From contig JAACJO010000023.1 of NCBI GenBank assembly GCA_013368445.1, positions 1 to 64,000 on the forward strand: 64,000 nt of DNA, given 5' to 3'. Origin of the DNA: Leucocoprinus leucothites (taxonomy: Eukaryota; Basidiomycota; Agaricomycetes; Agaricales; Agaricaceae). How positions within the stretch are numbered: position 1 is the first letter of the stretch; every line of letters starts with the position of its first letter. Positions 5,311-34,699 of this stretch are shown here, in pieces. Both the position numbers and the translations under genes were made by a program. The notes below the pieces were generated by a model that worked only from the letters and a program-made list of their open reading frames with translations, ran no database searches and was not told the DNA's origin.

Positions 5311-5342
<32 letters not shown>

Positions 5343-5647
5343 AGTGCGACCCCAGAGGGGTTGCCAATTTATAACGCGGTGCACGATAGCAGTCCACGCC
5401 CGACTATCTACTACAGGGAACCGATACCGCTACCGACTATGCAAGAGTAAACAACCGGGAATACATAATAGTCCTGTCCGAGACAATACGTGAAACGACA
5501 GCAGAAGGGGCTAGGCATGTGACAAAATACAAAGAATGAAACATATACCGATATCACTGCATCTGAAGGCAGGCCTTGTGGTTGGTGGAAGCCCATCCGG
5601 CGACCGGCGATGGGTGGGGGACAATGCGTTGACACTAGGGAGCTCCC

Positions 5648-8184
5648 CTAGGCCTGGGGCCGACCAGCAGAACCAGAATGACTTTGCAGCCAATTCTGAT
5701 CAAACCGGTGGCGCCAGAATGTGCACTTACGGTCAGTAGCAGCATGTTCCTTGCTGCAATTGACACACTTGATGTGGGGACAGGGATCCCCGGCAGGTGT
5801 GGGCTGAATAGGGGGGTTTGCCTTTGGCGATCCCTTACAGCAGGAGGAGGTGGTGCGGTGATTCTCAGACCAATGTGGCCCACCGCATTGTGAACACCTG
5901 AGCGCACAGTTGTGACAGGTGGTGGTAGTGTGACCCCAGTGCCAGCATCATTGACACTGGGTGGTCCCAGGGTGAGTGCGCGCAGCCTTAATCATGGACT
6001 GCACGCCGTCGAAGTTGAGGTATTTGCTGACCAGGCACTTGGCATTGGCACCGGACTGAGAATCCCAAAGGTCGACCCAAATGGTGGCAGTGTCAGCTTT
6101 GGTGGAGTTGCGCATGATGCGCACGGAGGATACATTAGTGAATGTCTCCTTGAAGGGAGACAGATGCATATGGTCGGTGACGTGTTGCGGAGTGGTGCAG
6201 ATGCCACTCATGTAGTAAGGGACGTCCAGGATCTTAAGGTAAGACCTGGACCTGGGGCGCTTGGTTTTCAGCTCAAACGGGGCAGTGAAGGCTGAAGAGA
6301 GGGAGGATTCAATCACTAATGCATCGGCATCAGTGGTGATGGAGTTGGTGTACAATGAGATGGTGTCATATGCCTGAGTGATGTTCTCGACGCGAAGTGA
6401 ACTCTTCGTGCGAGTGAGGGAGTCGTTAAGAAGGCGCATGGCCTTGTGGTGGAGGTAAGTGATATCACTGGAATTGCCAGTGAAATCGAGGAAGAGTTGG
6501 CGTCAGGTGGGGCCCGACGTGGTCATGCAGGGCTTCTTTGCAGAAGGCACATCAGCGAGGGCAGCCTGATGCATTGCAGCGACACGATCGGGCTCGAGGG
6601 TGGGGTGGGACTGGGCTAACTTTATAAGTGCTGCTGCAGACGCCGGGGTACGGGCTACCTCAGCGGACGACTTCTTAGCCGCTGAGGTGGGATGGGCGCT
6701 TGAATGGGCGCTTTGCCACTAGCGCGGGCCTTGGCCAGCACCAGCTTGGGCGGTAGGGAGGGACGGGCCAGGGCAGGCCAACGATCCAGGGGCGGTAAAG
6801 TGGGTGCCTTGGGGGAACCCATGTCAATGTCACATGGACCCGCTGAGTCAGCAGATCCATGGGTCGCCTCGAGGATGATGCGCGTCGCTTTAGGGGAGGC
6901 CTCGGCCAAGAACCTATGACTGAAGTCCCCCAGAAAATCTCCATACATCTCCCAGCCAGCGGCATTGAGAGAGTTAGAGGTGATCAGCATGCTGCTCATA
7001 TTCAGCTCGCTGACTACAGCATACCAGGCCTTGGCTAGACAGGTAACCATGGACCGTGCGTCTTGCTCTGCGATGTCAGCAGAGTCTTCAATGGTATCCA
7101 ACCACTTGAGGAAGGATATGAGGTTGTTGAGGGTGCGCTTTGGGGTGAGCTCCTTCTTCTTTCCCTTGGAGGAGGTCACCGACTCGGGCATGGTAGGGGA
7201 GTGTCGACAGGGTAGAAGGTGGTTCCACCGGCTGTGAAGGGTTTGAGTGGCGACAGAACATCAGCCACTGGGGGAGCAACTGACGCGATGGAATGTCAGT
7301 GGTCGGTTGGGAGGAGCCAGGCGATGGAACGTCAGCCTGGGGGAAGCCGAAGAACCCTCACACGTTGAGAGGGTTGTCTTAGGGTCGAGGTGGTTCCACT
7401 TTCTGGAAGAAAAGATACCACGGCAGTGGCTTCCTTCTTTCAAAAAAGAATCGCAAGTTCCTCATCCCCACCTATGTCAAAGGGGCACCTGGCGTCCCTT
7501 AGCCAATGAATTGCCATCATTATGTGCGCGTATGACACGTGCCATCCTCAATCATGCTCCTATTGAGCTTATCGCGAGAGGTTCTTCCCCCTCGAACCCA
7601 AATCCTGTCATTGTGGCCATCGCCTGGAAACATGACATCACATCCTGTGTTACTGCCCCCTCTATCCCTTCCGCACTCAATGGGTGCAATGCGCATTCCC
7701 TCAGTATGAGTTCCTTGTTGAGTTCTTGAAAAAGAACCCAGCCACTTTTGCTTTTACCAATCACGACACGCGTCCACCACCGCCTCAAGCTCCTGTGCCC
7801 ACCAAACCAAATGAAGGTGAACTATATTCTTTCATCTCTTCTCTTTTCTTTTCCTTTGAGACCGATCTCTATGTATGACACCTCGTTCTATAGTCTCTTT
7901 TGAGTCTTATCTATGTTGCTGGACTAATCTCTGTCTTAAGCGGTCTCCGACCGCTTCGTGTACCCCAGCTTGCTGTAGTGTACCATCTGTTTGTAATATT
8001 TAGTTGAAAGCGGACTGCAACCAAGCACCGCTATAAAATTCATTGATTTTTTTAAAAAAAAAAAAAGGGTCGAGGTGGTCATCTTCGGCCATCTCGGCGA
8101 TGTTGAGCTCGTCGTCAGAGACGGCGGACTCGGATTCAAATGCAGCAAACTGGTTGGCAGTAGCTTTAGACTTGCGCCTACCCA
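5648..8184 (-). pseudogene. ORF1/Gag-like protein of element E
   Basis: The gene starts MGRRKSKATANQF at 8184 and ends at the TAG 5648-5650. LINE-A DNA interrupts it after EDDHLDP. Downstream come the KGKKKELTPK patch, THGSADSAGP motif, the family TGA at 6503-6505, the MRLLNDSLT/RRM-like block (5948-6439), then three Cys/His knuckles including CSQC-GPH and HIKCVNCSKEH. Frameshifts separate 6655-7191 from the flanking blocks. The domain order matches the C-terminal half of LINE-A ORF1, so it is a Gag-like RNA-binding protein by homology; the copy is dead. Confidence 0.8.
7394..8066 (+). mobile_element. LINE-A 3' fragment inserted into element E, TSD GGGTCGAGGTGG
   Basis: This 673-bp 5'-truncated LINE-A copy begins in the C-terminal Cys/His part of ORF2, runs through the 3' UTR and ends in poly(A) (8054-8066). 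GGGTCGAGGTGG occurs at 7382-7393 and again at 8067-8078. Joining the flanks restores the gag sequence of E. It shows LINE-A-type machinery integrating next to an A-rich tail with a 12-bp duplication. Confidence 0.95.
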
Positions 8185-8267
8185 TATTACTGTAGATAGA
8201 CAATGTAAGAATGCCTGAAAACAAACACCAACTTTCGATGGTGGTGGTAAGAGGACAAGGAGGGATG

Positions 8268-8438: not shown

Positions 8439-8643
8439 TTTTTTTTTAATTTTTTTTTATTAAATCAATGAATTTATATAGCGGTGCTCGATCACAGTCC
8501 GCTTTCAACTAAATATTACAAACAGATGGTACACTACAGCAAGCTGGGGTACATGAAGCGGTCAAAGACCGCTTGAGACAGAGACTATACACGATTAGTC
8601 CAGCAATATAGAAAAGACTCGATAGAGACTATTGAACAAGGTG

Positions 8644-11600
8644 TCATACACAGAGATCGGACTCAAAGGAAAAGAAGAGAGATGAAATAAGAGAGTATAG
8701 TTCACCTTCATTTGGTTCGGTGGGCACAGGAGCTTGAGGCGGCAGTGGACATGTGTCATGATTGGTAAAAGCAAAGGTGGCTGGGTTCTTTTTCAAGAAC
8801 TCGACAAGGAACTCATACTAAGGAAAGCGCATTGCACCCATTGAGTATGGAAGGGATAGAGGGGGCAGTAACACAGGATATGATGTCGTGTTTCCAAGCA
8901 ATGGCCACAATGACAGGACTTGGGCTTGAGGGGGAAGAACCTCTCGCAATAAGCTCCAATAGGAGCATGATTGAGGATGGCGCGGGACATACGTGCGCAT
9001 AATGATGGCGATTCATTGGCTAAGGGAAGCCAGGTGCCCCCCTTGACATAAGTGGGGGTGAGGAACTTGCGATTCTTTTTTGAAAGAAGGAAACCGCTGC
9101 CACGGTACCTCTTCTTCCAGAAAGTGGACTCCCAGTATTTCTGGCAGTCTTGGTGATTTTGCATTGCAAGAAGTCGAGAGTAGCGCCTAATCGAGGGGGG
9201 GCATGTATGCGTGTGGAAGTGACGTCTTTGTGGACTTTAAGGTGGGGCTTCCAGCGCCACTTGGAAGGGACGTCCCAGAAGTTGATAGAATGAGAAGGTT
9301 TGGCCGTGAGCCAGTCGGATAAGAGTCGGCAGACTTGGATGGAGTGTGATTGGCTCAAGTGTATAGAGGGATCGACTGCTAGCTTGGCTGCTGGGAGACA
9401 GTCGGTGATGAGGATGATGTGGTCGCAATGAAGGGAAATGGCCTTGGCGATGCCAATACGAATGGAGTAGAGTTTGGCATCAGTAGACAACGCTCGACCG
9501 CTAGCCTGTTTTGCATGGGACACTTGCCATCCGCCGCGATATAAATGTGCCGCTGAAACCGCCTGAAGGGAACCTATGAGTGGAACAGAAGCATCAGTAA
9601 CAACCGAAATACAGTTACGATTGGAAGAAGAAGAGGAAAAAGCTGAATCGAGAGATGATACATGTTTATACATTTCGTGTTTATCCAAGCGATTGCAGGG
9701 GTGAAAGTGAATAGAATTGGGAAAGATGTCCATAAGACGAGATCCAGGCTTTGATTCAGGAGCGAATGGAGAAAAGGAGTCAGAAAGATGAGAAAGAGAA
9801 CTATCTACATCGATAAGAGGGCCTTTGACTTTAGCTTTTTTGGCTGGAGTGAGAAGGCGAAGCGATTGGGGATGAGGGGAGGAGTTAAGAGAGAAACTGT
9901 CAGATAAAAGAGAACGTAATGCATGATTAGAGGGTAAAGTAGAGACTCAATACGACGAACGAATAGCTAATTTATGAAGATGGAGGTGGATTGGAATAAG
10001 TCCAGCAATGCTTTCAGCGCCGCCTGATGGGGAAGTATGGAAGGCGCCTGTGATCCAGAGAGCCGCGCATCTTTGCATAGATGATAAGGACTTGAGAAGC
10101 ACCTTGTTACGAGCACCCTCAAAGTACCATAGTCGGAATCCATACGTGGCCATGGGGACAACACATGACCTATAGAGCAGATGTTTTTGTAGAGGGAGGA
10201 GGCCTCGGGTGGAGTTTCCTAGCATACTCATAGCTTTCACTGTGGATAATGCTTTGGTGGAGTAATATCGGACGTGTTCTTGAAATGATAGTCGACGGTC
10301 AAAGTAGAAGCCCAGGTACCGCCAGATGCGTTTAGGATGCAGTAGAGGACCGCCAATGTTGGATAGATCGAGGGGGGGATTAGAGTCATTGTGACATCGG
10401 GAGAAATGAAAGACCTCAGATTTATCGTGTTCAACGACAAGCCCAAGATCGGTGCAAATGGAGTTAATGATGGAATAAGCTGATTTGAGGGAAGAAATAG
10501 TGTCAGTATAATTCTTTGCTTGAGATATACAAAGCCCATCATCAACAAATGATAAAAGGAAAGAAGGGATAGACTGTAGTCGAGCACATTGGTCGAACAT
10601 GAACATGAGGGGCGCTAGATAGAGCGCGGATAGAATGGGTGATAAAGTGGAACCTTGCCCACGCCAACATCCGCATCATGGCATTGGATAGGAAAGTGTT
10701 CCACATGAATTGAGTGGATCGACCTATGAGGTAGTGTGAAAAGAAGTTAACGAGTTCTGGGGCGAACCCCTGTCATCGTAGAATGTTAGTAAGGATTTCA
10801 TGGTTTAGGGAGGGGAAGAATTGGGCGATATCAAAGCACAGACGCTGGTAATCATACCTTTAGCCCATCCGGCCCAAATGATATGAGTGAGGAATACTCC
10901 TGCATCCTCAGTGGATTGTTGGATAACTCCGCCCATTTGATTAGGGTGGAGAACATCTAGAGACACTGCTTCATACTGCATGCGGCGAGCAATCATCTTC
11001 TCAATTAATTTACCTAAAGTGTTTAGTAGAACAATGGGACGAAACACTTTCGGTGTATCATAGGCCAGTTTATTCGGCTTGGGAATGATGATAGAGACCG
11101 AGTCCTTGAAGTGACTCGGCCAGTAAGAGAGATGTATGCACGCGTTAGCAATGAGTATTATATTTTTGAGGCATTCATTGTGGGTGACAATGGACTTTAG
11201 ATGTTTCCAGGAGACGTGATCAGGCCCGGGTGCTGAAGAGTTAGCGCATGAAGATAGGGATTCGGTGAGTTCGAGGATGGAGAAGTTTGCCCAGGAACGG
11301 GGGGAAGGGATTTTATTTCATTCAGAATGTTAGAGCTTACCGGTCGACCAGATGCTGAGTTATATGATGAATGGAGTGCATTCCATAGGTCCAGAAGATC
11401 ATTGCAAGGTCATCCTTGATAGTGGATACCCTCAATGGCAGGGAGTTTGCGTTGTTTTACCCATTCCATAAGGTCCCAGGGTCGCTTGTTGGTCGATGCA
11501 ATTTCATGGATGCGTGCATCAAAGAAAGAACACTTAGCAGCTCGAGTAGCTGCTCTGAATGCCCACCAGTCTTTACGATCCTTTGTTCTTCTGTAGGTAA

Positions 11601-12590
11601 GAAGAGTCTCAGAGCAGTGGGGGTTCCACCATTCCTTTGACCGGTTAGTAATCCATACAGTCTTAGAGTTCATATTCCAAGATTCGTTAAAGATACGAGA
11701 AATGGAGTCAGAGATATTGTTCAGACAAGAGGTAGAATGAATGTCCGAGCAGTCAAGGGCCACTAGATGCTCAGAGACTTGGGAAATGAAAGCCGTCTCT
11801 TCATCGCTATCTTTTGGTAGTACGCGTTTTTTATAATTAATATAATCTGGATGGATTGGAAGATCCATAATCAAAGGTGGGTGGTCCGATGGAAGCCTCG
11901 AATTAACATCGATAATATGGGGGTGGAATTGTTAGTGCAAAAAATGAGATCGATAACTGAATTGTCATGACTTTCAATGGAAGAGAAATGAGTAGGGGAT
12001 AATGAGGTCGGTGAAGACCTTGTGAGATTGAAGCTGTCTGCCAACTCCGTTAGAGTTATAGCCGACATAGGGATGTAAGTAGCTGAAGGGTCCCATTCTG
12101 GAGATCAACAATTACAATCTCCTCCCATATAAATAATATTAGGGATGTTGATGAAGTTTGTTGAAAGGAAATTGATCGCCGATGAGGACGAGTCAGAGTA
12201 TATGTTAAGTAGATGAATATAGTTACCCTGGTTGAATAGACCCAAGATTTGTATGTCGTGGTGGTTGACCCACTCTTGTCGAAGAATGGGTCTCATGCGA
12301 AGTAGTCGTCTGTGAACATAAGTCAGAGTACAGGGTCGGGGGTTGTTAGGCTTGGTAGGGTGAACCATACACAACCACTCAGGGTGAATAGGAGCACCAA
12401 TGACATCATCCCCTTCAGGGTTAGTTGTAGAAGGTGCTTTTCGAATATGATTCCATGGGGGTTCCTGTAGAAAAATGATTTCAAAGTCCAGCTTTTTGGA
12501 CTCGAGTATAGTATCAACTAGGGCATAAGAGCGTCCCACGTTTTGCGAATAGATACAAACAGAAGAGATAGGTTTGTTCTTACCAGACAT
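8644..12590 (-). pseudogene. LINE-A ORF2: AP endonuclease, RT, RNase H, Cys/His cluster
   Basis: ORF2 starts MSGKNKPISS at 12590 and ends at TGA 8644-8646. In order: an AP-type endonuclease (QEPPW near 12460, GGDCN near 12115, SDHPPL near 11890), a linker, RT (SAPGPDH near 11230, STEDAG near 10900, FVDD at 10538-10549), RNase H (VVTDAS near 9600, ILITDC near 9410) and the terminal CHCG...HHILCYC cluster (near 8900). It nicks target DNA and reverse-transcribes the element RNA. Damage: an in-frame TGA directly after GGDCNC (12102-12104) and frameshifts near 11930, 10860 and 9170. The catalytic FVDD box is intact. The endonuclease motif reads GGDCN where the K and R copies have GGDFN. Confidence 0.88.
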
Positions 12591-12597
12591 ATTTAAG
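12588..12597 (-). promoter_or_regulatory. ORF1 stop/ORF2 start overlap TAAATATG
   Basis: ORF1 ends TAA (12593-12595), two bases follow, and the ORF2 ATG lies at 12588-12590. The same TAAATATG occurs at 23549-23556 and 41407-41414 in two other LINE-A copies. The conserved spacing suggests ORF2 translation by termination-reinitiation. This is inference from spacing only. Confidence 0.5.
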
Positions 12598-15352
12598 CAG
12601 CAACTCTGCCACCGGAGTGATTGGAATTGGCGCGAATGGCACGTGCAGTGCGTGATTCGGCGGCTTTGTTAGAATGCCAGGTTCGGTCAAACCTGTTCTT
12701 CCAGAATGGACATTTGGTGTCATTTGCATGATGATCGCCTTTGCAATTCAGGCATTTAAAGTTCTCAAGGTGAGGACATGGAGTGCCATCAGGAGTGGCA
12801 TCACGGGGGGGATTGGATTTGGGGTTGGCCTTGCAACACCAGGCCATGGATCGATGGTTCTCAACGCAGTGAGGGCCACCACAGATTTGACAGTGTGCAC
12901 CAAGGGCACAACACGCATGAGTGGGATGCCCCCAACGCCAGCAGTTCCTGCACTGTGCAATGCTGGGGTGCATACTAGTAGCACGGATAGTTCCGATATG
13001 TCGGCCGAAGTTAATAGTACGGTTGACCAATGTCTTGGCCTTGGTACCATTTTGGGAGTCCCAGATGTCAAACCACACAACGGCTGTGTCTGACTTTGGG
13101 GAAGCTTTCATGACGTGAGGACGAGCAGCAAGGATAACATTCTCGAAGAGTGACGATTGGCCAAGGGCCTGCTCAACGAAAGTGGGGGAGAGAGGGTTGG
13201 ATGAATTGGCTACCCAATAAGGGATGCCAACAATTTTTAGGAAGGATTTGGATTGTGGGAGACGGGGCTCAACAGGGATGGCGTCACCCAGTTGCCAGGC
13301 TTTTTTTAGCCAAGACTTAATGGTTTCAAGGTCGGTGGGGAGAGCAACACCTGAGGTAGTAATTGATATGCCGTTGTATGATTCGCAAACTGATTCGACG
13401 CGAAGTTTGGACTGAGCGGCAGTAAGACCGCGATTACAGAATTCGGCTGCCTTGTTAAAGTCTTTAATTCGGTCAGCGATGATATTTCCCTCAAAGGGGA
13501 TAAGGACTTGGCGACGGGTAGGTCCGTGCGTAGTCATTTTGGGTTTAGCACGTGAGGCGTTTGTGGATGAAGGTTCAGGTGCTTGAGGTTGAGCACCTCC
13601 AAAACCTGTCTTGTACATAGCAAGGACTTTGTCATATGATAATTCAGGGAAGGCGAGTATCATTTCTCGCATCTTAACCCCGTTGATGTTGGGAGAGGAA
13701 TTATAAGAGGAAGAAGTCATTGGCTGGACATCCTGTCGGGCGGCATCAGCAAATGACACGTTTTTCTTGTTGAAATGTTCCGTAAGAGGTTTGGTGGATA
13801 TCTTACAGTCAGGAGGGGGAATGGGAGGTGGCATGTCAGAGGCGCTCTTGGGGTTAGGTTTTGATGGCTGAGCCTGGCCATCAGAAGAGGGACGCCCAAC
13901 TGAGCACTTGAAGTTTCCATTCCCATTCCTTGGGGTCACGTGATGGGAAGGTGGAGGGGGGGGGGCCCAGGAAACACGGATAGGGCCAGCGGGCTTAGAA
14001 GATGTAATGTCATTCTTTGCCTTCAGGGAGCCTGACATGGACGAAACATCTCATGCCTTACCAGAAGACATAACGTCATTCTGGGGGAGGAGGGGGGTGC
14101 CCTCACCAGGAGGGGCTTGGTCGATGTTCATTTGGTCATCATCGATGCGAGCTGTAGAATTAGTTTGCCCAACAACAATGCCGGGTGGAAATAGGGGGGT
14201 AGGGATGGTAAACAGAGAAGGTTTACATGCCTTTTTTCCCTTCCCTTTACCCTTAGGAGGGGGGAAGAGTCCGTCATGGGGATATCGGGAGACGGGCTGT
14301 AGTAGTGCCTTAATGCATCAACAATGGTGAGACCGCTTTCACCATTAATGGGAAGCCGGTCCCAGCCTGTTTCAAACATAGCAGTGAGTAAACAATATAT
14401 TGGTTCCCCCATCTGGGGAACCCTTGGATCCTTTCTGTCAGGCTGTAATCCTAATGCAGCACGGTGCTTAAAGAAATTTGTAGCATATTTAAGCGCCTCA
14501 AGTGCTTTGAAAGTAGCTTCACCAACAATAACAGTTTCTTTGGTGGCAGTGTTCGATGGATCCTTAAGATCCGGCAGATGTGGCTGTGCAGACCTAGGTT
14601 CCTGTGGCTGTGCAGTGATGTCACCAGTGACATCATGTGTGATGTCAGGTGTGATGTCATTAGTATCAGATGAACCGGCAAAGAAGGTAGCCGGAGTGCC
14701 AGTTGGCACAGCATTTGCTGACTCAGCAGATCCATGGATCGCATGAGGCAGCCTTGAGGTGGGTGGGGGTCCAAAGAGCCAAATGGTAGGCTCCCCGTTT
14801 GTGATTATCCCATCCTCTTGGTCGCTCCACGTGTCCCCACGAGAGTCCAAGTTCAGAGGATTAGGTTTGTTAAGCTCACCAAGAAATCCCTCGCCAAATG
14901 AACGAAAGGGAATGGGTGACTTGAAGCCGTCATATGTGCCTATCGACGCAGTTCTTGAGACAGCTTTGGGTGTGGTGTCCAATCCTTGACGGACGTCACG
15001 AGCACGGGCTCGTTTAATACGTGACGAGGGAGGAGGAGGAGTTCTAAAGGATTGTGAGGCTGCATGGGAAAGTGCAGCAGGAGTGTTTATAGAAGAGGAA
15101 GGGGTTGACGATTCAGATGAGTCAGAGTCACTCTCACCACTTTCTCCTTCATCAGATCCAGCTCTGGATGGAGCAGCCGACTTGGCGTCATCGCAAACTG
15201 AATGTTTAGTCGATTTGATAGAAAGCGTGGGTGAGATGGAGCGGTCGCACTTGAAGGTTGAGACACGTGTTTCAGTGTCGGCAATGTTCATGGGGTCCGA
15301 GGACGGCGGAGGGGTACCCTTAAGGTCTACCCAGTGCGATGGTGCAGTCATG
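12593..15352 (-). pseudogene. LINE-A ORF1: Gag-like RNA-binding protein with three zinc knuckles
   Basis: The start is MTAPSHWVDL at 15352; the 15459 ATG upstream is less likely because it lies outside the element. The N-terminal half is low-complexity: an acidic Ser-rich stretch (15090-15180) and a DITPDITHDVTGDIT repeat (about 14590-14660), plus the HGSAESA motif shared with gag-only elements. A frameshift between about 14280 and 14130 moves into the second half (14038-12593), which holds PTRRQ, an RRM-like region with VWFDIWDSQNG, and three knuckles: CRNCWRWGHPTHAC, CQICGGPHC...H and CLNCKGDHHANDTKC. It would coat the element RNA and act with ORF2 in a ribonucleoprotein. Confidence 0.85.
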
Positions 15353-15434
15353 ATGGTATAATTCGTAATCAGTCTGTATGTAGACACTGTCAAAGAAATC
15401 GATGATGGTGGTAAGAGGGAAAGGAGGATAAAAA

Positions 15435-16223
15435 AAGAGAACCCTACAGATGTGACCAAGCAGCATCGTGGTGATGGTTTTCAAGCCAAAGCTGGTCAAA
15501 CCAGTGTCGCCAGAATGGGCATTTGCGATCATCAGCTGCATGCAACTTGGCACAGTTGATGCACTTGATGTGAGGACAGGGATCCTCAGCAGCGGTGGGC
15601 GGGATGGGGGGATTGGCCTTCGGACTCCCATTACAACAGCTCAAGTGGGAGTGGTGGTTCTCAGTATGATGAAGACCACTGCAGGCAGCATATCCCAGCG
15701 CACGGGTGCAGCATAATGAGGTAGAGTGCCCCCAGCGCCAGCAATGCTGACACTGAGGACTGCCTGGATGAGTGCACACAGCCTGGAGTACGGACTGAAC
15801 ACCCTTGAAGTGGAGGTACTTGCCCAGGAGCTTCTTGGCGCTTGCTCCTGATTGAGAGTCCCAGAGGTCAAACCAGACAGTGGCAGTGTTGGCTCTGGTG
15901 GAATTGTGCATAATGTGCATGGAAGAAACATCTGCGAAAATGTCCTTGAAAGCAGACAATTGCATGCAGTCAGTTACGTGATTTGGCATGATGCAGACAC
16001 TGTTCATGAAGTAAGGGATATCAAGGACCTTGAGGTAGGACCTCGACCTGGGGTGGCACATCTTGATTGCAAAGGGGGCAGTGAAGACAGAGGGGATGGA
16101 GGACTCAATGACATCACAGTCGATGTCAGAAGGAACGGAAGAGGTGTGCAGTGCAATCGTGCTGTATGCCTTGGTGATATTCTCCACATGCAAGATCAAC
16201 TTGGCATGGGAGAGGGAGTTGTT
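15435..16223 (-). mobile_element. Gag-only LINE element F, gag 3' part (segment 1 of 3)
   Basis: This is the coding part of F, running left into its 3' UTR, which is interrupted by LINE-A. Its upstream side stops at 16223 against a 5' leader in the opposite orientation (16224), so F lacks its own 5' end. No TSD for F is visible. Confidence 0.75.
15461..16223 (-). pseudogene. ORF1/Gag-like protein of element F, C-terminal two thirds
   Basis: An open frame of about 250 residues begins inside the family motif NDSLSCAK (here NNSLSHAK) and covers the RRM-like block (AYSTIALHTSS, RSRSYLKVLDIPYFM, VWFDLWDSQSGASAK) and three knuckles: CQHCWRWGHSTSLC, a second with AACSGLHHTENH, and CINCAKLHAADDRKC. 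It ends FWRHWFDQLW plus a short tail. The N-terminus is missing. Of the gag copies here it has the longest uninterrupted C-terminal half, so it is the best template for the family RNA-binding domain. Confidence 0.8.
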
Positions 16224-19946: not shown

Positions 19947-22224
19947 TTTTTTTTTTTTTTTTAAAAAAAATCAAGTGTGACCCCAGAGGGGTCGCCAATT
20001 TATAACACAGTGCGCAATAGCAGTCCGCGCCCAACTATCTACTACAGGGAACCGATACCACTACCGACTACGCAAAAGTAAACAACTGGGAATATATAAT
20101 AGTCCTGTCCGAGACAATACACGAATCGACAACAGAAGGGGGGCTAGGGATGTAACAAAGTACAAAGAAATGAGACATATACCAATATCACTGCATCTGA
20201 TGGCAGGCCTTGTGGTTGGTGAGAGCCCATCCGGCAACCAGCGATGGATGGGGGACGATGCGTTGACACTAGGGAGCTCCCCCTAGGCCTGGGGCCGACC
20301 AGCAGAACCAGAATGACTTTGCAGCCAATTCCGATCAAACTGGTGGCGCCAGAATGCACACTTACAGTCAGTAGCAGCATGTTCCTTGCTGCAATTGACA
20401 CACTTGATGTGGGGACAGGGATCCCTGGTGGGTGTGGGCTGAATGGGGGGGTTTGCCTTTGGCGATCCCTTACAGCAGGAGGAGGTGGTGCGGTGATTCT
20501 CGGACCAATGTGGCCCACCACATTGTGAACACCTGAGTGCACGGTTGCAACAGGTGGTGGTAGTGTGGCCCCAGCGCCAGCATCATTGACACTGGGGAGT
20601 TCCGGGGTGAGCGCGCGCGGCCCTGATCATGGACTGCACACCGTCGAAGTTGAGGTATTTGCTGACCAGGCACTTGGCATTGGCACCAGACTGAGAATCC
20701 CAAAGGTCGACCCAAACGGTGGCGGTGTCCGCTTTGGCGGAGTTGCGCATGATGCGCACAGAGGATACGTTAGCGAATGTCTCCTTGAAGGGAGACAAAT
20801 GCATACGGTCGGTGACGTGTTGTGGAGTGGTGCGGATGCCACTCATGTAGTAAGGGATGTCCAAGATCTTAAGGTAAGACCTGGACCTGGGGCACTTGGT
20901 TTTCAGCTCAAACGGGGCAGTGAAGGCTGAAGAGAGGGAGGATTCGATCACTAATGCATCGGCATCAGTGGCGACGGAGTTGGTGTACAACGAGATGGTG
21001 TCGTACACCCGAGCGATGTTCTCGACGCAAAGTGAACTCTTCGTGCAAGTGAGGGAATCGTTAAGAAGGTGCATGGCCTTGTGGTGGAGGTAGGTGATGT
21101 CACTGGGATTGCCAGTGAAATTGAGGAAGAGTTGGTGTCGGGTGGGGCCTGACATGGTCATGCGGGGCTTCTTCGCAGAAGGCGCATCAGCGAGGGCAGC
21201 CTGATGCATCGCGGCGACGCGATCGGGCTTGAGGGTGGGGTGGGACTGGGCTAACTTTATAAGTGCTGCTGCAGACGCCGGGGTACGGGCTACCTCAGCG
21301 AATGACTTCTTAGCCACTGAGGGTGGGATGGGTGCTCGCCAGACTTGGCCATCAGACCTAACCTTAGGAGCGGGGGCGCTTGAATGGGCGCTTTGCCACT
21401 AGCGCAGGCCTTGGCCGGCGCCGGCTTGGGCGGTAGGGAGGGACGGGCCAGGGCAGGCCGACGATCCAGGGGCGGTAAAGTGGGTGCCTTGGGGGAACCC
21501 ATGTCAATGTCACGTGGACCCGCTGAGTCAGCGGATCCATGGGTCGCCTCGAGGACGACGCATGTCGCTTTAGGGGAGGCCTCAGCTGAGAACCTATGAC
21601 CGAAGTCCCCCAGAAAATCTCCATATGTCTCCCAGCCAGTGGCATTGAGAGAGTTAGAGGTGATCAGCGTGCTGCTCATATTCAGCTCGCTGGCTACAGC
21701 ATACGAGGCCTTGGCTAGACAGGTAACCATGGACCATGTGTCTTGCTCTGCGATGTCAGCAGAGTCTTCGATGGTATCCAACCACTTGAGGAAGGATATG
21801 AGGTTGTTGAGGGCGTGCTTTGGGGTGAGCTCCTTCTTCTTCTTTCCCTTGGAGGAGGTCACTGATTCGGGCACGGCAGGGGGAGCGTCGACAGGGTAGA
21901 AGGTGGTTCCACCGGCTGTGAAGGGTTTGAGTGGCGACAGAATGTCAGCCACTGGAGGAGCAACCGACAGCGATGGAACGTCAGCGGTCGGTTGGGAGGG
22001 GCCAGGCGATGGAACGTCAGCCTGGGGGGACCAAAGAACCCACACACATTGAGTGGGTTGTCGTAGGGGTCAAGGTGGTCGTCTTCAGCCATCTCAGTGA
22101 TGTTGAGCTCGTCGTCAGAGACAGCGGACTCGGATTTGAACGCAGAAAACTGATTGGCAGTAGCTTTAGACTTGCGCCTACCCATATTACTGTAGATAGA
22201 TGATGTAAGAATGCCTCAGAACAA
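19947..22224 (-). mobile_element. Gag-only LINE element I inserted in the 5' UTR of H
   Basis: I has poly(A) (poly(T) 19947-19962), a hairpin (19977-19995), a 3' UTR matching E's, and a gag whose 5' UTR runs to about 22224. If the flanking ACACCAACTTTC is a TSD, I lacks the outermost leader of about 40 bp, and the leader at 22237-22264 belongs to H. I retains many CpG sites and has the CGA codon at the position that is TGA in four sister copies, so it looks like the least decayed copy. Confidence 0.78.
20283..22185 (-). pseudogene. ORF1/Gag-like protein of element I
   Basis: The start is MGRRKSKATANQF at 22185 and the TAG at 20283-20285. Long open stretches (22045-21290, 21317-20583, then the knuckle region to 20283) are separated by only a few frameshifts, near 22030, 21370-21310 and 20580. 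Visible parts: basic N-terminus, NELNI/DDELNI acidic patch, KGKKKKELTPK, THGSADSAGPRDIDMGSPK, GPTRHQLFLNF (Arg intact), RRM-like block, VWVDLWDSQSGANAK and three knuckles ending CVNCSKEHAATDCKC. It is the copy to compare when judging which stops in sister copies are secondary. Confidence 0.8.
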
Positions 22225-22264
22225 ACACCAACTTTCGATGGTGGTGGTAAGAGGACAAGGAGGG

Positions 22265-22811
22265 ACATGTGCAACACATCTCTAACCATATGCGTTTGTC
22301 TCCCTTCAAAGAGATATTCGCCAATGTCTCCTCTGTGCGCATCATGTGCAACTCCACCAAAGCCGACACCACCACCATTTGAGTTGACCTTTGGGATTCT
22401 CAGTCCAGCACTAATGCTAAGTGCCTGGTCAGCAAATACCTCAACTTCAACGGCATGCAAACTATGATCAAGGCTGTGCATGCTTACCCTGGGACCCCTC
22501 AGTGTCAATGATGCTGGCATTGGGGCCACACTACTACCACCCGCCACAACCATGTGCTCAAGTGTTCACAATGCAGTAGGCCACATCGGTCTGAGAATCA
22601 CCACACCACTTCCTCCTACTGTAAGGGGTCGCTGAAGGCAAACTCCCCCATTCAGCCCACACCCACTGGGGAACCTTGTCTCCATATCAAGTGTGTCAAT
22701 TGCAGCAAGGAACATGCTGCTACTGACTGCAAATGCACATTCTGGCGCTACTGGTTTAATCGGGATTGGCTGCAAAGTCATTCTGGTTCTGCTGGTCAGC
22801 CCTGGGCCTAG
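22265..22811 (+). pseudogene. Gag J, C-terminal part with zinc knuckles
   Basis: The reading starts near LSPFKEIFANVSSVRIM, has an in-frame TGA at the conserved Trp-Val (VDLWDSQS) position, then CQ..CWHWGHTTTT, CSQCSRPHRSENH and CVNCSKEHAATDCKC, and ends PWA-TAG at 22809-22811. One frameshift separates the two halves near 22550. This is the RNA-binding end of the gag whose N-terminus is probably G. Confidence 0.7.
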
Positions 22812-24063: not shown

Positions 24064-24150
24064 TGTTAGAAGGTGATGCACAGGGGACATGTAGGAGTTC
24101 CTAGAAACCAGAGAAATCGCCCAGACAGCTCACAACTCACACAGGAATCT
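24064..24150 (-). repeat. Copia-type LTR, 3'-terminal 87 bp
   Basis: This begins TGTTAGAAGGTGATGC on the + strand, the reverse complement of the LTR 3' end. It continues after element L at 26419-26582 (164 bp). The two pieces sum to 251 bp, exactly the length of the solo LTR at 50184-50434. It lies in LINE-A fragment K. Confidence 0.85.
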
Positions 24151-26402
24151 CTTTTTTTTTTTTTTTTTAATCATGTAATTTATAATGTGGAGTGTGGTAG
24201 CAGTCCGCACCCGATAACTACTACATGCAGCCAGTACCACTACCAACTACACATATACACTACTGGGAATATATAAAGTCCTGTCTGCATATAGTACACT
24301 ATATGACGTCAAAGATATGGAAAGTATGCATGGAAGTGAAACTAAAGTCTGATTTGCTCACTGCAAAGTGGGCTTGAGATGGTGTGGCCCTAGCAACTGC
24401 CGACGGGTTGGGGGATGCATTGACGGAGGTACTAAGATCTTGTGACTGGGGCTCTCAAGTCCATCACATGCCAGGTTAACTAGTCACAGTCAAACCAATG
24501 GCGCCAGAACAGGCATTTGGGGTTGTTTGCTGCATGTTCTCCTCTGCAGTTCACGCACTTGATGTGGGGGCAGGGCTCCCCCTCAGGTGTGGCTATAATG
24601 GGGGGGGTTTGCCTTGGCACTCCCTTTACAGCAGGATGATGTGGTACGGTGGTTCTCACTATGGTGAGGGCTGCCGCACTGGGTGCACCTGAGTGAGTGA
24701 TTACAACAGGTGGGGGTAGAGTGGCCAAAACGCCAGCAATGCTGGCATTGGGGCACACCGGGGTAGGCACAGGTAGGCTTGATCACAGCCTGGACTCCAT
24801 CGAAGTGGAGGTACTTGTTGAGGAGCTTCTTGGCATTGGCTCCTGATTGAGAATCCCATAAGTTGAACCAGATGGTAGTGGTGTTGGCCTTGGGGGAGTT
24901 GCACATGATGCACATGGAGGATAGGTGGGCGAATGTCTCCTTGAAGGGAGACAGATGCATGCAATCAGTGATGTGAGTTGGTGTGATGCGCATGCCATTC
25001 ATGTAGAAGGGGATGTCCAGGATCTTGAGGTAAGACCTGGACCTGGGGTGGCAGGTCTTCAGCTCAAAGTGAGTGCTGAAGGCCGAGGGAATAGCTGACT
25101 CAATGACGGTGATGTCAGAGTCAGAGGGGACAGTGGAGATGTACAACGCAATGGTGTCATATGCCTTTGAGATGTTCTCAATATGCAAGCCAGACTTGGC
25201 ACATGAGAGTGAGTCATTGATAAGGTGCATGGCCTTGTGGTGGATGTAGGAGATTTCACCAGCATCACTGATGAAGTCAAGGAAAAGCTGGTGGCGGGTG
25301 GGGCCAGTAGTAGTCATGCATGGCTTCTTGGCAGTGCCGGTGGTAGCAGTGGTGGCCTGGTGCATAGCAGCAATGTGCTCAGGCTCGAGGGAGGGGTTTT
25401 CCTGTGCCAGCTTGATGAGTGACACAGGAGACACCAAAGTGCCTAAACGAGTGGCCTCTGCAAATGAGTGCTGGCATGGCACCAGAGCAGAGGTAGGGAT
25501 TGGCACCTTCATGGGTGCTTGAATGAGGGGGCCACTAGTGCGCGCCTTAGGGGGCACTTGCTTGGGTAGTACAGGAGAACAGGCCAGGGCGGGCCGCAGT
25601 GCCTTGGGCATTTGTTTGGGCACCTTAGAGGAGGCCATGTTGATGTCATGTGGTTCCGCTTTGTCAGCAGATCCATGGTTCACCTCATGGGCAACGTGTG
25701 TACATTTAGGGTAGGCCTCCTCAACTCTGGAGGCACAATTCCAGATGAAATCTGCAAATGTGGCCCATCCCTGGGCTTGCATTCACTCACTGATGAGGGC
25801 CATGTCACCCTGGCCTTGGTTGAAGATCTCTGCAACCAATGCAACAAGGGTCAGGACAATCACGGTAGTGGTGGCCTCTGGTAGAGGGCCTTGGGGAAAG
25901 CTCCCAATGAAGTGGGAGAAGAAATGGAGCCCAGCAAGAGCCTGGGTCTCGACAGACTCCTCAGTTGACCTGGAGGAGACAGCAGACAGCAGTGCTGGGG
26001 GAGGGAGGTTCTTCACAGGGTAGAATGTCTGTCCACCAGCAGTGAAGGGTTTTGGAGACAGCAACAGAACATCAGCCATGGGGGGAGGGGCTACCAGCTA
26101 CAATGGAATGTCAGCAGCAGGCAGGGAGGAAGGTCCAGGCAATGAAACGTCAGCCTGGGGAGGTCCAAAGAACCCACAGACATTGCGGGGATCATCATAG
26201 GGGCCGAGATGTTTGTCCTCAGACATCTCAGTGATGTTGAGCTCGTTAGCAGAGGCTTCAGTGGACTCAGTAGTTTGGCAGGGGGGCTTGTTAGACTTAG
26301 ATTTGTGTTTACCCATGTAGCTACAAGTAGACACAGTAGTATTGAACTTGAAACATGACACACCAACTAAGAGATGGTGGTGGTAAGAGGTCAAGGAGGG
26401 TG
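24151..26402 (-). mobile_element. Gag-only LINE element L, TSD ACTCACACAGGAATCT
   Basis: L has a poly(A) tail (poly(T) 24152-24168), a 3' UTR, a gag and the 5' leader at 26373-26400. The 16-bp ACTCACACAGGAATCT occurs at 24135-24150 and 26403-26418 without mismatch, so both ends are certain. It inserted into the copia-type LTR. There is no RT. The 3' hairpin of the E/F/H group is absent and the terminal sequence is TATAAATTACATGATT. Confidence 0.93.
24480..26316 (-). pseudogene. ORF1/Gag-like protein of element L
   Basis: The start is MGKHKSKSNKPPCQ at 26316 and the TAG at 24480-24482. After a few breaks in the N-terminal linker (near 26090 and 25790) a 399-codon open block (24583-25782) carries VNHGSADKAEPHDINMASSK, GPTRHQLFLDF (no TGA here), the RRM-like block with RSRSYLKILDIPFYM, IWFNLWDSQSGANAK, and knuckles CQHCWRFGHSTPTC and CTQCGSPHHSENH. 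A frameshift at about 24600 precedes the third knuckle CVNCRGEHAANNPKC. This is the longest single open block of this family in the window. Confidence 0.8.
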
Positions 26403-26418
26403 ACTCACACAGGAATCT

Positions 26419-26740: not shown

Positions 26741-26843
26741 CTGCCTCCCTGATCACAGAGCTTCACCCAGCCAAAACCCTACCTTACCTTACCCAGGAGA
26801 AACTGGTCCAAACCTGCAGAACAGTTAGCGACACAAGGAGGGA

Positions 26844-26846: not shown

Positions 26847-26878
<32 letters not shown>

Positions 26879-29086
26879 ATGATTTATTATGCGGTGCCCA
26901 GTTGCAGTCTGCACTCACCAATATAATACAGGGCCTAAGTACTGCTACCCAAGCCAAACACTACAGAGATGTGGCATAGTAACAAAGAAATGAAACTAAA
27001 GTGCAACTTGCAGACCTCTAACAGTAAGCTTACATGTGCATGTGGCCCTAGCGATGTGCTGACAGGGTTGGAAGATGCATTGAAGCAGGTACACGACCTA
27101 CTACTGGGGCCTCCTATTGTCCTCCTTGTGACAGCTAAGCCAGTCATGGTTGAACCAGTGGTGCCAGAACAGGCACTTTCAATCATTAGCTGCATGGTTG
27201 CCCTTGCAGTTGATACATGAGATATGGGGACAGGGCTCCCCAGTGGGTGTGGGCAGGATGGGGGGGTTTGCCTTTGGACTCCCCTTACAGCACAACAATG
27301 TGGAGTGATGATTCTCACTATGGTGAGGACCACCACATTGGGAATACCTGAGTGCACAGTTGCAGTAGGTGGGAGTAGAGTGACCGAAGTGCCAGCATCA
27401 CTGGCACTGGGGAACACCAGAGTGGGCACAGGTGGGCTTGATGACAGCCTGCATACTGTTGAAGTTGAGGTACTTGTTGAGGAGCTTCTTGGCACTGGCT
27501 CTTGACTGAGAGTCCCATAGGTCAAACCAGACAGTAGTGGTGTCAGCCTTGGGGGAGTTACACATGATGCATATGGATAAGATGTCAGCAAAAGTGTCCT
27601 TGAATGGAGACAATCACATGCAGTCAGTGATCTGAACTGGCATAATATGGACACCATTCATGTGGAAGGGGACATCGAGGATCTTGAGATAAGACCTTGA
27701 CCTGGGGTGGCATGTCTTCAGCTTGAACAGGGCAGTGAAGATGGAGGGGATAGCAGACTCAACGACAGTGATGTCAGAGTCTGAGGGTATGGCAGAGGTG
27801 TACAGCGTGATAGTGCTGTATGCCTTGGTGATATTCTCAACACACAAAGAAGACTTGGCACATGAGAGGGCATCATTGAGAAGGTGCATGGCCTTGTGGT
27901 GGAGATAAGTGATCTTACTGGCATCACCAGTGAAATCAAGAAACAATTGGCAGCGGGTGGGCCCAGCAGTGGTCATATGCAGCTTCTTGGCAGAGCTGGT
28001 GGTGGCAGTGGTGGCCTGGTGGATCATGGTGATGTGATCAGGGTTGAGGGAGGGGTTTGCCTGTGCCAGCTTGATGAGCGACACAGGTGGCACTAAAGTG
28101 CCAGAATGAGCAGCTTCTGCAAACAAGCACTGACAAGGTGCCAGAGTGGAAGTGGGGATGGGCGCCTTTGTGGGCACTCGAGGGGGGCCACTAGTGTGCA
28201 CCTTAGGAGGTGCTTGCTTGGTCAGTATAGGGGGCTGGGCTGGAGCGGGCCACAGAGCCTTGGATGTTTGCTTGGGTGCCTTGGGGGAGCCCATATCAAT
28301 GTCACATGGTCCCACTTTGTCAGCGGATCCATGGGTTGCCCTGTGGATGATGCACATGTCTTTAGGGGAGGCTTCTGGCTTATTGAACTGGGCAAAGCCC
28401 TGCATGAAGGAGTGAAAGATGGTCCAGCCATGGCTAGCCTACTGCTTGCCCATGGAAATACATGCACTCCCATGCCCACTCATCTCGAATTCATAGATGG
28501 CACTAGCAAGATAGCTAGCACATGCCTTGGCATAGTCCTCATTGAGGAGGGAATTGTCAGGGAGTTCTCACATGAAGTGTGAGAACTTCTTGAGGCCATT
28601 GAAAGCCCGCTTGGCTGCAGCATCGTCTCCAGGCATGGTCCCAGCAGAGGACAACAGGGTGGATGGCACAATCGGGGGAGGAGTGGGAACTGGGTAGTAC
28701 ATGGTACCACCAGCAACAAGTGGGGCCTTGGGACCTAAGGTCACTGGAGGCTGAGTAGTAGGTGCCAGTGACAGAATGTCAGCAGGCACTGAGGGAAGAG
28801 GTGAGGGTGACTGAATGTCAGCCCTCATGGAGGCAGCCAGAGCCTTGAATTCCGCCATTGAGTGGCCAGGCTGGGTGGAGGTGGAGGGCCTGGGGACCTC
28901 TTTGATTGTGTCAAGCTCGTCATTGCCAGACATGATATCAGAGTCGAGGTCCATGTTTGTGATCTCGTGACTAATAGCTTTAGACTTTTGCCTACCCATG
29001 TTTTGCTAGTGTAGACAATGTAGTATTGTGCTCAAACTAAGACACCAACTCAAGAGATGGTGGTGGTAAGAGGACAAGAAGGGATG
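26847..29086 (-). mobile_element. Gag-only LINE element M, TSD CACAAGGAGGGACTC
   Basis: M has poly(A) (poly(T) 26847-26872), 3' UTR, gag and 5' leader (29056-29083). The 15-bp CACAAGGAGGGACTC is repeated exactly at 26832-26846 and 29087-29101. The element is 2.24 kb and has no RT. CpG is almost absent. It is the complete counterpart of fragment B. Confidence 0.93.
27101..28999 (-). pseudogene. ORF1/Gag-like protein of element M
   Basis: The start is MGRQKSKAISHEI at 28999 and the TAG at 27101-27103. The N-terminal block (28999-28568) has NMDLDSDIMSGNDELD and Pro-rich sequence. A frameshift near 28570-28410 leads into a 263-codon block (28405-27614) with THGSADKVGPCDIDMGSPK, GPTRCQLFLDF, the RRM-like part and RSRSYLKILDVPFHM. 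The knuckles follow in another frame: CQ.CWHFGHSTPTYC, C..YSQCGGPHHSENH, CINCKGNHAANDxKC-like. The copy is broken but structurally complete. Confidence 0.78.
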
Positions 29087-29101
29087 CACAAGGAGGGACT
29101 C

Positions 29102-29190
29102 ACCAGAACCCAGCAGACACCAAAAAGCATGTGACAGAGTATGTTAGCCCCCTGGGGGGGGTGTGGCAAAAGAAAATGTAAGTGGGTTCT
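29102..29190 (-). pseudogene. LINE-B ORF2 extreme C-terminus
   Basis: Read on the minus strand this gives KNPLTFSFATPPPQGA, which aligns with KKNPATFAFTNHDT at the end of LINE-A ORF2. It joins to 31476 onward (…ELINFCDKN) when element N and one TSD are removed. Confidence 0.6.
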
Positions 29191-31475
29191 TTTTTTTTTT
29201 TTTTTTTGTTTAAATCAAAGATTTATTACACAGGGCACAATAGCAGTCCATGCCTGACAACTACTACATGCAGCCAGTACTGCTACCAACTACACATATA
29301 CATCACTGGGAATATGTAAAGTCCTGTCTATATATAGTACACTACACAATGTCAAAGAGATGGGAAGTATGCATATAAATGAAACTAAAGTCCAACACAG
29401 TCACTGTCAAGTGGGCTTGAGAAGGTGTGGCCCCAGCAACTACTGACAGGGTTGGGAGATATGTTGACAGAGGTACTAAGACCTCATAACCAGGGCTCTC
29501 AAGTCCATTGCATGCCAGAGTAACCAGTTACAGTCAAACTGATGGTGCCAGAACAGACACTTGTGGTCATTTGCTGCATGTTCACCTCTGCAGTTCATGC
29601 ACTTGATATGGGGGCAGGGTTCCTCCATGGGAGTTGGCAGAATGGGAGGGTTGGCCTTGGCACTCCATTTACAGCACAAAGATGTGGTACAGTAGTTCTC
29701 ACTATGGTGAGGACCACCATACTGGGTACACTTGAGCAAGCAATTGCAACAGGTGGGGGTGGAGTGGCCGAAGCACCAGCATTGCTGACACTGAGGTACA
29801 CTGGGGTGGGCGCAGGTGGGCTTGATCACAGCCTGGCACCCATCAAAGTGGAGGTACTTGTTCAGGAGCTTCTTCGCATTCACTCCTGACTGAGAATCCC
29901 ATAAGTTGAACCATATGGTAGCAGTGTCAGCCTGGGGGAGTTGTGCATAATGTACACAAAAGAAACATGAGCAAATGTCTCCTTGAAGGGAGACATCCAC
30001 ATACAATTGGTAATGTGATTTAGAGTGAGGTGCACTCTGTTCACATGGAAGGGGATGTCCAGGATCTTGAGGTAAGACCTGGACCTGGGATGGTGGGTCT
30101 TCAGCTCAAAGGGGGTGCTGAAGGCCAAGGGGATGGTTAACTCAATGATGGCAATGTCAGAGTCAGAGGGAATTGCAGAGGTGTACAATGCAATGGTGTC
30201 GTATGCCTTTGAGATATTCTCAACATGCAAGCTGGACTTGGCACATGAGAGCAAGTTGTTGATAAGGCACATGGCCTTATGGTGGAGGTAGGAGATCTCA
30301 CTGGCATCACCATGAAATCAAGGAAGAGTTGGCAGCACATGGGCCCAGCAGTGGTCATGCATGGCTTCTTGGCAGAGCTGGCGGTGGCAGTGGCAGCCTG
30401 GTGCATAGCAGCGATGCACTCAGGCTCAAGGGAAGGGTTTTCTGTGCCAGCTTAATAAGCAACACAGGAAATGCCAAAGTGCCTAAACAAGCAGCCTCTA
30501 CAAATGAGCATGGGTGAGGCACCAAGGTGGAGGTGGGGATGGGTGCCTTGGTGGGCACTCACTGGGCTGGGCCATTGGGCCTGATTCTGGGCTTGGGGAG
30601 GGAGGCCACATGCACATGCTTTGATGGGCCAGGGTGGACAGGGCTGGAGCCATGGGCTGGTGGATCAAGCCAGGCCTTCTGTTTGTTCTTGGGTGCCTTG
30701 GGAGAGCCCATGTTGATGTCACATGGTTCCACTTTGTCAGCAGATCAATGGGTCACTTTGTGGATGATGTGTGTACATTTAGGGTGGGCCTCCTCGATTC
30801 TGGAGGCATAGTCCCAGATGAAATCTGCAAATGTGGCCCATCCCTGGGTTCACATATGCTTGCTGTCAAGGGCTGTGTCACCTTGGCCTCAGTTGAAGAT
30901 TTCTGCAACAAGTCCAATGAGGGTCAGGATGAGTATGGTGGTGGTGGCCTCTGGAAGAGGGCCTAGGGGAGCTGACCTGGCAAAGTGGGTGAAGAAGTGG
31001 AGCCCAGCAAGAGCCTAAGTCTCAACAGACTCCTCAGTTGACCTGGAGGAGACAGCAGATGGCGGTGCTGGGGGAGGGGGGTTCTTCACAGGGTAGAACA
31101 TCTGTCCACCAGCAGTAAAGGGCTTTGGGGACAGTGACAGGACATCAGCCATGGGGGGAGCTACTGGCTGCAATGGAACATCAGCAGCAGACAGGGAAGA
31201 GGGTCCAGACAACAAGACATCAGCCTGGGGGGAACTAAGGAACCCACAAACATTGTGGGGGTCATCATAGGGATCAAGATGATTGTCCTTGGACATCTCA
31301 GCAATGTTGAGTTTATTGGCAGAGGCGTCAGCAGACTCAGTTGACTGGCAAGGGGGCTTGTTAGACTTGGACTTTTGTTTACCCATGTAGAACAGGGAGA
31401 ATAATGATGTAAACTAGACTTCTTAAAACACACCAACTGAGAGATGGTGGTGGTAAGAGGTCAAGGAGGGTGCAC
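29191..31475 (-). mobile_element. Gag-only LINE element N in LINE-B, imperfect TSD AAGTGGGTTCT/AAGCAGGTTCT
   Basis: N has poly(A) (poly(T) 29191-29207), 3' UTR, gag and 5' leader (31443-31470). The flanks AAGTGGGTTCT (29180-29190) and AAGCAGGTTCT (31476-31486) match at 9 of 11 positions and both differences are transitions, as expected for an old, CpG-decayed TSD. Removing N rejoins the LINE-B ORF2 C-terminus. Confidence 0.88.
29476..31386 (-). pseudogene. ORF1/Gag-like protein of element N
   Basis: The start is MGKQKSKSNKPPCQ at 31386. The first 123 residues are open (NKLNIAEMSKDNHLDPYDD, SSRSTEESVET), then TAG and several frameshifts. The RRM-like block (30272-29880) and knuckles (CQQCWCFGHSTPTC, CTQYGGPHHSENY with a Cys-to-Tyr change, CMNCRGEHAANDHKC) follow, ending at 29476. 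The loss of one Cys and one His in the second knuckle is specific to this copy. It belongs to the L/N subfamily and is non-functional. Confidence 0.75.
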
Positions 31476-34686: not shown

Positions 34687-34699
34687 AGGGTGACCCTCA

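Follow-up and report, generated by a model that had tools for sequence, protein, structure and literature searches.

A clade of gag-only LINE elements in Leucocoprinus leucothites that resembles a likely helper LINE at its ends and lies in the same genomic blocks

The stretch of DNA analysed here (the window) covers the initial 64 kb of contig C24 in the Leucocoprinus leucothites assembly, which has 47.0 Mb in 110 contigs. It holds several copies of a short retrotransposon whose one gene, gag, is related to the first open reading frame (ORF1) of long interspersed nuclear elements (LINEs), and pieces of two LINE families, LINE-A and LINE-B (Table 1). LINE-A is an autonomous relative of the short elements, and LINE-B is a second family of autonomous type. 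The gag-only copy at the centre of the analysis is element E, of subfamily A.

Element E is a full-length insertion on the reverse strand with a poly(A) tail and exact 16-bp target-site duplications (TSDs), in agreement with an earlier note on this DNA. The target site of E is itself a repeat, and two uninterrupted paralogues of it are present in the window. Both hold a single 16-mer between their flanks, and therefore the 2252 bp of E are the entire inserted unit. It follows that no second ORF (ORF2) was lost between the ends of E, as the note had argued. The note had also claimed exact TSDs for the copies E, L and M. This is correct for E and for M (15 bp), but in L the two sides agree over only about 10 bp, two mismatches included.

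The gag of E is not a single open frame. The basic N-terminus, HGSAD motif, RRM-like (RRM, RNA recognition motif) region and zinc knuckles noted earlier for gag were recovered, but the open part of E, of 399 codons, ends after the first two knuckles, and the third is visible in other copies. The two RRM units of E are at approximately residues 165–242 and 247–336, and the knuckles start at residues 346 and 366.

Table 1. Positions in the window of element E, other gag-only copies and the LINE families. A tilde marks an approximate limit.
Feature	Position	Strand	Evidence or remark
Gag-only element E (subfamily A), full length, 2252 bp	24151..26402	-	TSD, poly(A), empty target sites
Poly(A) tail of E (T run on + strand)	24152..24168	-	sequence
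TSD of E, 16 bp, exact, left copy (ACTCACACAGGAATCT)	24135..24150	.	sequence comparison
TSD of E, 16 bp, exact, right copy (ACTCACACAGGAATCT)	26403..26418	.	sequence comparison
Empty paralogue of E target site, one exact 16-mer copy	50181..50432	-	flanks 90.6% and 96.7% identical
Second empty paralogue of E target site	4884-4991		flanks 94.3% and 97.2% identical; single 16-mer, one mismatch
Open part of E gag, 399 codons: HGSAD, two RRM units, first two zinc knuckles	24583..25782	-	
3'-terminal motif of E	24187..24206	-	3 mismatches to pattern
5'-terminal motif of E	26373..26399	-	resembles LINE-A 5' end
Gag-only element M	~26847..29086	-	exact 15-bp TSD at 26832-26846 and 29087-29101
Gag-only element L (subfamily A)	29189..31472	-	no exact TSD; ~10 bp match, two mismatches
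C-type gag-only element	5312..8267	-	exact 14-bp TSD; holds nested insert
Nested 5'-truncated LINE-A fragment in the preceding copy	7395-8066	+	
C-type gag-only element (approximate limits)	19947..22267	-	poly(A) at 19947-19962
Partial gag-only copy of type D, the fourth type: RRM and knuckle region	15495..16219	-	inside open frame 15444-16253
LINE-A, ~7.0 kb, frames broken in this copy	8439..15434	-	exact 14-bp TSD at 8425-8438 and 15435-15448
LINE-A ORF1, C-terminal 481 codons, two RRM units and zinc knuckles	12593..14038	-	
LINE-A reverse transcriptase pieces (RVT_1)	9950..11317	-	
LINE-B reverse transcriptase region (approximate limits)	61978..63219	+	
LINE-B, further piece	32780-33365	-	

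An ORF2 was sought downstream of gag in the genome, and none was found in the copies tested. An endonuclease on the same strand within 2.5 kb downstream is present for none of the 80 scored gag matches, as compared to 58 of the 88 LINE-A ORF1 matches (Fisher p = 4e-23), for which the median distance between the two is 390 bp (58 matches). These counts are based on 147 of the 150 scored endonuclease matches, with three left out (on C27, on C37 and at C6:59853), all outside the dense clusters, and on 88 of 90 LINE-A ORF1 rows, without a split match on C7. On the opposite strand, an endonuclease is found within the same distance downstream of two of the 80 gag matches. Four gag matches have a same-strand endonuclease just upstream, which is the order that insertion of the element into a LINE yields. 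The gag-only element, with its TSD-bounded ends, thus has no reverse transcriptase (RT) or endonuclease of its own (0/80).

The element is abundant. A 27-base pattern taken from its 5' end has 232 exact matches in the genome (121 on one strand, 111 on the other), and the reversed control pattern has none. The pattern is specific and matches neither the seven LINE-A starts in the fetched loci nor the LINE-A start in the window. It occurs exactly 23 times in loci L039–L085, and all 22 occurrences with a printed continuation enter the gag-only leader. Forty-four gag-matching loci were fetched, and TSDs were examined in the 29 copies whose 5' end could be recognised (four in the window, the others in 25 loci). 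Exact direct repeats of 10–16 bp are present at the two ends in 12 of the 29. The copies with TSDs are 2252–2296 bp in length, with the exception of a 2956-bp copy in the window that holds a nested insert. This count leaves out repeats of 10 bp (L063) and 9 bp (L040, L064, L066, WL and WN), most of which are off the ends. The 10-bp repeat of L067 begins a few bases past its A-rich run. The poly(A) tail and TSDs expected of target-primed reverse transcription are therefore present (in the 12 copies, plus M).

The TSDs of 13 copies also show a base preference. Each of the first two bases after the poly(A) is a purine in 12 of the 13, often G. A preference of the endonuclease for certain nick sites may be the cause, but the first base can be confounded with the poly(A) tail.

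The gag frame is intact in many copies. Seven fetched copies are open from ATG to stop over 632–635 codons, which bears out the expected intact gag with single copies in place of a consensus, and 26 of the 80 scored matches are stop-free and belong to open frames of 634 codons or more (count from table). Open copies occur in at least two subfamilies. The Gag protein has a low-complexity N-terminal half, two predicted RRMs and three zinc-knuckle motifs. It shares 38% identity with LINE-A ORF1 over 373 amino acids (E = 2e-82), so the homology suspected earlier for the knuckle half is confirmed. The structure models of Gag and LINE-A ORF1 both have a tandem RRM topology; for Gag, the confidence of the model is low outside the RRMs, and metal binding by the knuckles is putative.

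PMC4120745 defines type I ORF1 proteins by one or more RRMs directly followed by CCHC zinc knuckles. Gag has this arrangement, with two modelled RRM units, Foldseek matches to tandem RRM proteins, and the knuckle motifs. Transposase_22, the L1-type ORF1 domain, is absent from the Pfam listing at E values up to 10. Against solved structures, the sequence of Gag has no match at E values up to 1, and that of LINE-A ORF1 has two weak matches (E = 0.54 and 1). No LINE ORF1 protein was noticed in the fold-search listings, which proves nothing.

Gag is under purifying selection. The ratio of nonsynonymous to synonymous substitution rates (dN/dS), with differences at CpG sites included, is 0.18–0.49 in the 78 pairs of 13 open copies, below 1 as had been anticipated. 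Between subfamilies B and C it is 0.28–0.42, with dS values of 1.0–1.5. Third codon positions vary most, with p below 0.05 in 77 of the 78 pairs. A conserved gag would also be compatible with a domesticated host gag gene, spread as retrocopies and selected for a function in the host. The LINE-A-like termini on the copies, the 232 5' ends, the open copies in at least two subfamilies, and the location of all 100 listed 5' ends inside LINE-A-rich intervals (see below) make such an origin very improbable.

In close pairs such as L048 and L053, the recent differences are concentrated at CpG (40 of 65 for this pair). The clustering suggests methylation-driven decay.

The autonomous families differ in abundance. 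Besides the copy in the window, there are five near full-length copies of LINE-A, with 89–96% identity, and RT of LINE-A type occurs in open frames of 1329 codons in four rows of the listing. Pieces of LINE-A match RVT_1, the RNase H-like match is weak, and the endonuclease of a LINE-A-related copy scores 25.8 bits on PF14529, where the cut-off is 27.4. The ORF1 of LINE-A in the window is split over two frames (14128–15459 with 12593–14038). Several genomic matches to it lie in stop-free open frames of 916–954 codons on C6, C13, C20, C28 and C86, and the complete ORF1 probably has about 930 codons. LINE-B has a zinc-knuckle ORF1 of its own (L084), and its RT is 46–52% identical to that of LINE-A type. 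At 80% identity or more it is found at 13 places, counting the query, in or beside the LINE-A blocks described below, and among the matches listed it is outnumbered by LINE-A-type RT.

Trees of the RRM-knuckle region were built from 49 and 21 selected sequences. In the first, rows of four gag-only subfamilies form one clade (100/100) apart from LINE-A. The second, without LINE-B and the partial type D row, recovers this clade, again at 100/100, and places LINE-A together with an L. birnbaumii protein (92/91, not starred). The approximately unbiased (AU) test rejects a clade of gag-only elements and LINE-A (p = 3e-5), and LINE-A is therefore a possible helper and not the direct parent of gag. 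If the root lies between the two lineages, and without gene exchange, the trees suggest that the lineages of gag and LINE-A had already separated when these species diverged. With such an early split, the gag-only element would not be a recent deletion of LINE-A. The simplest reading is that ORF2 was lost once, long ago, and that the subfamilies diversified afterwards, because an ORF2 is absent from every copy of them that was sampled.

These results bear on whether each element is simply the 5' half of an ordinary two-ORF LINE after deletion of ORF2, as the homology of Gag to a LINE ORF1 would allow. Separate deletions are extremely improbable in view of the near-constant length between exact TSDs, the uninterrupted target sites of E, the lack of a same-strand endonuclease within 2.5 kb downstream (0/80), and the single clade apart from LINE-A. 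An origin as deletion derivatives of LINE-A in particular is ruled out by the exact TSDs, the empty sites and the separate clade. LINE-B was also considered as the parent of gag and is ruled out, as its ORF1 is only 32–33% identical.

The gag-only element and LINE-A resemble each other at their termini. At the 5' end, the similarity extends over 27–29 nucleotides in all seven copies tested (p ≤ 0.001). At the 3' end, it reaches p ≤ 0.001 in four of the seven (L053, L056, W5 and L082). In the window, a relaxed 3'-terminal motif is found 14 times, compared with 0.14 expected, at gag-only and LINE-A copies and with an A-rich tail after each, and the 5'-terminal motif is found 10 times, compared with 0.00 expected, LINE-A copies counted. 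In an alignment of 15 3' ends, 12 of the 75 columns are invariant.

The two elements also lie in the same parts of the genome. The LINE-A RT matches on eleven large contigs are gathered in one interval per contig (73/73); these intervals are defined by the matches themselves and total 2.2 Mb with margins of 50 kb. On the six contigs of known length, 41 of 41 LINE-A RT matches are inside the intervals, compared with 3.3 expected if uniform. In the two counts of gag matches on these contigs, 25 of 26 (2.0 expected) and 12 of 13 (1.0 expected) are inside, the block-location count covering the first 43 places of 132 listed rows. Moreover, all 100 of the gag-only 5' ends listed, from the total of 232, lie no more than 50 kb from the span of LINE-A RT matches on the same contig. 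On C1–C10, the listed ends span 20–211 kb per contig, and the copies are in interior blocks, on both strands.

One block per chromosome could be the result of loss of insertions elsewhere, by selection or recombination, in place of targeting. This is a serious possibility, which we hold to be somewhat less probable than its opposite. The blocks do gather other repeats, with 12 of 27 gypsy RT matches inside them on the six contigs (2.1 expected) and 19 of 65 on the eleven. Gypsy RT is otherwise dispersed through the genome, however, whereas the listed gag-only 5' ends are without exception near the LINE-A RT spans.

In Agaricus bisporus, as described in PMC7473861, each chromosome has one methylated repeat cluster of 110–280 kb, which is likely the centromere. 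Four HaTad-type LINE families and two unclassified repeats are reported there in all clusters, and only there apart from small fragments. The arrangement in L. leucothites, a member of the same fungal family, is similar in having one block per contig, and by this analogy the LINE-A and gag-only blocks resemble the putative centromeres of A. bisporus. The window would then be part of a centromeric block at a contig end.

The similar ends and the joint location point to LINE-A as the candidate helper of the gag-only element. Mobilisation of the same non-autonomous element by LINE-B, or by a third LINE that is extinct or unseen, is unlikely. LINE-B is present in the same blocks, and the first tree puts the gag-only rows on the side of LINE-B and the proteins P0090, P0105 and P0106 and not of LINE-A, although on long branches. 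On the other hand, the ORF1 of LINE-B is no closer to gag (32–33%), LINE-A resembles the element at both ends, and LINE-A-type RT matches outnumber those of LINE-B among the matches listed.

The observations are most probably explained, and we place considerable confidence in this, by a long-lived non-autonomous LINE clade of about 2.25–2.30 kb that provides Gag in cis and relies on the ORF2 protein (ORF2p) of LINE-A in trans. A full copy has a short LINE-A-like 5' leader, one gag, and a 3' untranslated region that ends in the motif shared with LINE-A and a poly(A) tail. The RNA of the element would be translated, and the new Gag, with its presumed RNA-binding activity, would coat its own RNA (cis-preference). 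The ORF2p of LINE-A would recognise the shared 3' end in trans and copy the RNA at a nick by target-primed reverse transcription, giving the poly(A) and the TSDs of 10–16 bp. The proposed cis-preference would explain the lasting purifying selection on gag. It is also suggested by this selection, as gag is maintained although the Gag of LINE-A could be borrowed.

Several observations weigh against this proposal. The 80 gag matches and 150 endonuclease matches that were scored come from 1234 and 188 candidates, respectively. No RT-bearing element with a closely similar gag was found, and the gag of the gag-only elements is not derived from LINE-A ORF1 as sampled (AU test, p = 3e-5), the clade tested having been named after the first tree was seen. 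No exact TSD of at least 10 bp is present at the ends of 17 of the 29 copies; decay of the duplication or absence of the 3' end may account for these cases. For dN/dS, copies were picked for their open frames, a selection bias, and one of the 78 pairs has no codon-position bias (p = 0.067). The match of subfamily A to the 3' end of LINE-A is weak (p = 0.04 for E, 0.35 for L and 0.07 for L039), and the 3' end of LINE-B was not visible, which leaves a place for LINE-B as the helper. A conserved RNA hairpin at the 3' end was rejected on folding z-scores, from one end each, of −0.82 (LINE-A), −0.82 (B), −2.34 (C) and 0.18 (A), with type C alone suggestive. The enrichment of gypsy RT in the blocks belongs on the same side.

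The non-autonomous partners of LINEs are mostly non-coding short interspersed nuclear elements, and the telomeric arrays of HeT-A in Drosophila are not known to have TSDs. HeT-A had been given in the earlier note as the known parallel, with no described fungal counterpart that the note was aware of. HeT-A is not the sole parallel, as HAL1, MoTeR2 and the ORF1 copies of Blumeria are precedents, and the last two are fungal; among the papers listed from the literature searched, which excluded most subscription journals, there is no report of a gag-only LINE in mushrooms.

Mammals (HAL1) and flies (HeT-A) already provide examples of LINEs that code for ORF1 alone. HAL1 is derived from L1, is non-autonomous, codes for ORF1p and nothing else, and has several independent origins (PMC5753468); it likely uses the L1 machinery (PMC4161310). 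The gag-only element likewise has an ORF1 without an ORF2. In comparison to HAL1, which is L1-derived with an L1-type ORF1, the Gag here is of type I, with RRMs and zinc knuckles, and the sampled gag-only subfamilies are one clade, confined to one block per contig. HeT-A has TART or TAHRE as its RT source. According to PMC5537684, it has Gag but no Pol and occupies a niche in common with related RT-bearing LINEs; it adds head to tail at chromosome ends, and its Gag leads the RT-bearing partner to the niche. The gag-only element is similarly a LINE with Gag and no Pol in a niche shared with a related RT-bearing LINE. It differs from the telomeric head-to-tail arrays of HeT-A in its interior blocks, its presence on both strands, and its TSDs of 10–16 bp.

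Among fungi, MoTeR2 of Magnaporthe oryzae is the partner of MoTeR1, with the RT region replaced by unrelated sequence of no obvious function; the two are telomeric and share 860 and 77 bp at their ends, as given in PMC7367193. The present element also shares ends with an RT-coding partner in one niche (about 27 nucleotides at the 5' end in 7/7 copies, and clearly at the 3' end in 4/7), but in place of an unrelated replacement it carries a gag homologous to LINE-A ORF1. In Blumeria, LINE ORF1 copies without ORF2 are behind the EKA genes (Satine, Kryze), and PMC4641428 gives a full two-ORF structure for none of nine Avrk1-like consensus sequences and a downstream RT-RNase H for one of 34 full-length fragments. 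Both cases concern a fungal LINE ORF1 multiplied without ORF2. The Blumeria copies are presented in that source as truncated ORF1 recycled into effector genes, whereas here the unit is a selected gag-only element with TSDs at its ends.

As far as the searches could tell, what is new within this literature is that a mushroom hosts a gag-only LINE clade that is bounded by TSDs, has diversified and conserves its gag, and that this clade is restricted, together with its likely helper, to a single block on each contig. No publication on L. leucothites together with transposable elements was found. An enzyme-less partner that keeps its Gag selected across at least two deeply diverged subfamilies offers a probe for the action of Gag in cis and of ORF2p in trans. 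An element and a likely helper in one block per chromosome offer a fungal system for questions on retrotransposons and centromeres, as HeT-A and TART do for telomeres. A bolder extension would make the pair a centromeric counterpart of the Drosophila telomere system, in which Gag would carry LINE ribonucleoproteins to centromeric chromatin, LINE-A would give the enzyme, both together would build and renew the blocks, and selection on gag would reflect targeting. This extension is speculative and we consider it doubtful.

Protein searches with gag-only queries returned one protein, P0003 of L. leucothites, among about 8000 scored candidates each; these were the candidates that share most words with the query, and absence from other species is not thereby shown. 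P0003 (D9756_004290) is a public gene model that one source names an endonuclease-type protein. In it, a fragment of a LINE endonuclease comes first and a gag-only gag is joined behind it. Its best place in the assembly has 98% identity over residues 127–538, with two stops in the alignment, and the next place has 84%. P0003 is probably a misannotation of a gag-only gag inserted in a LINE endonuclease fragment. The search with LINE-A ORF1 returned 147 proteins. For P0090, P0105 and P0122, among the 120 of these listed, the gag-only Gag gives slightly higher scores than LINE-A does, but that does not identify them as gag-only.

For the C-type copy at 19947–22267 in the window, a TSD was looked for and none was found. 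An extra hairpin (GCGACCCC/GGGGTCGC), with a z-score of −2.34, is located between the shared 3' motif and the poly(A) of type C; it is seen at the 3' end of L082 and in the C-type tails near 5340–5400 and 19960–20030. The window also contains two copies that appear gypsy-like by eye, at 34556–38445 and 55090–58984, which are on opposite strands and 77% identical.
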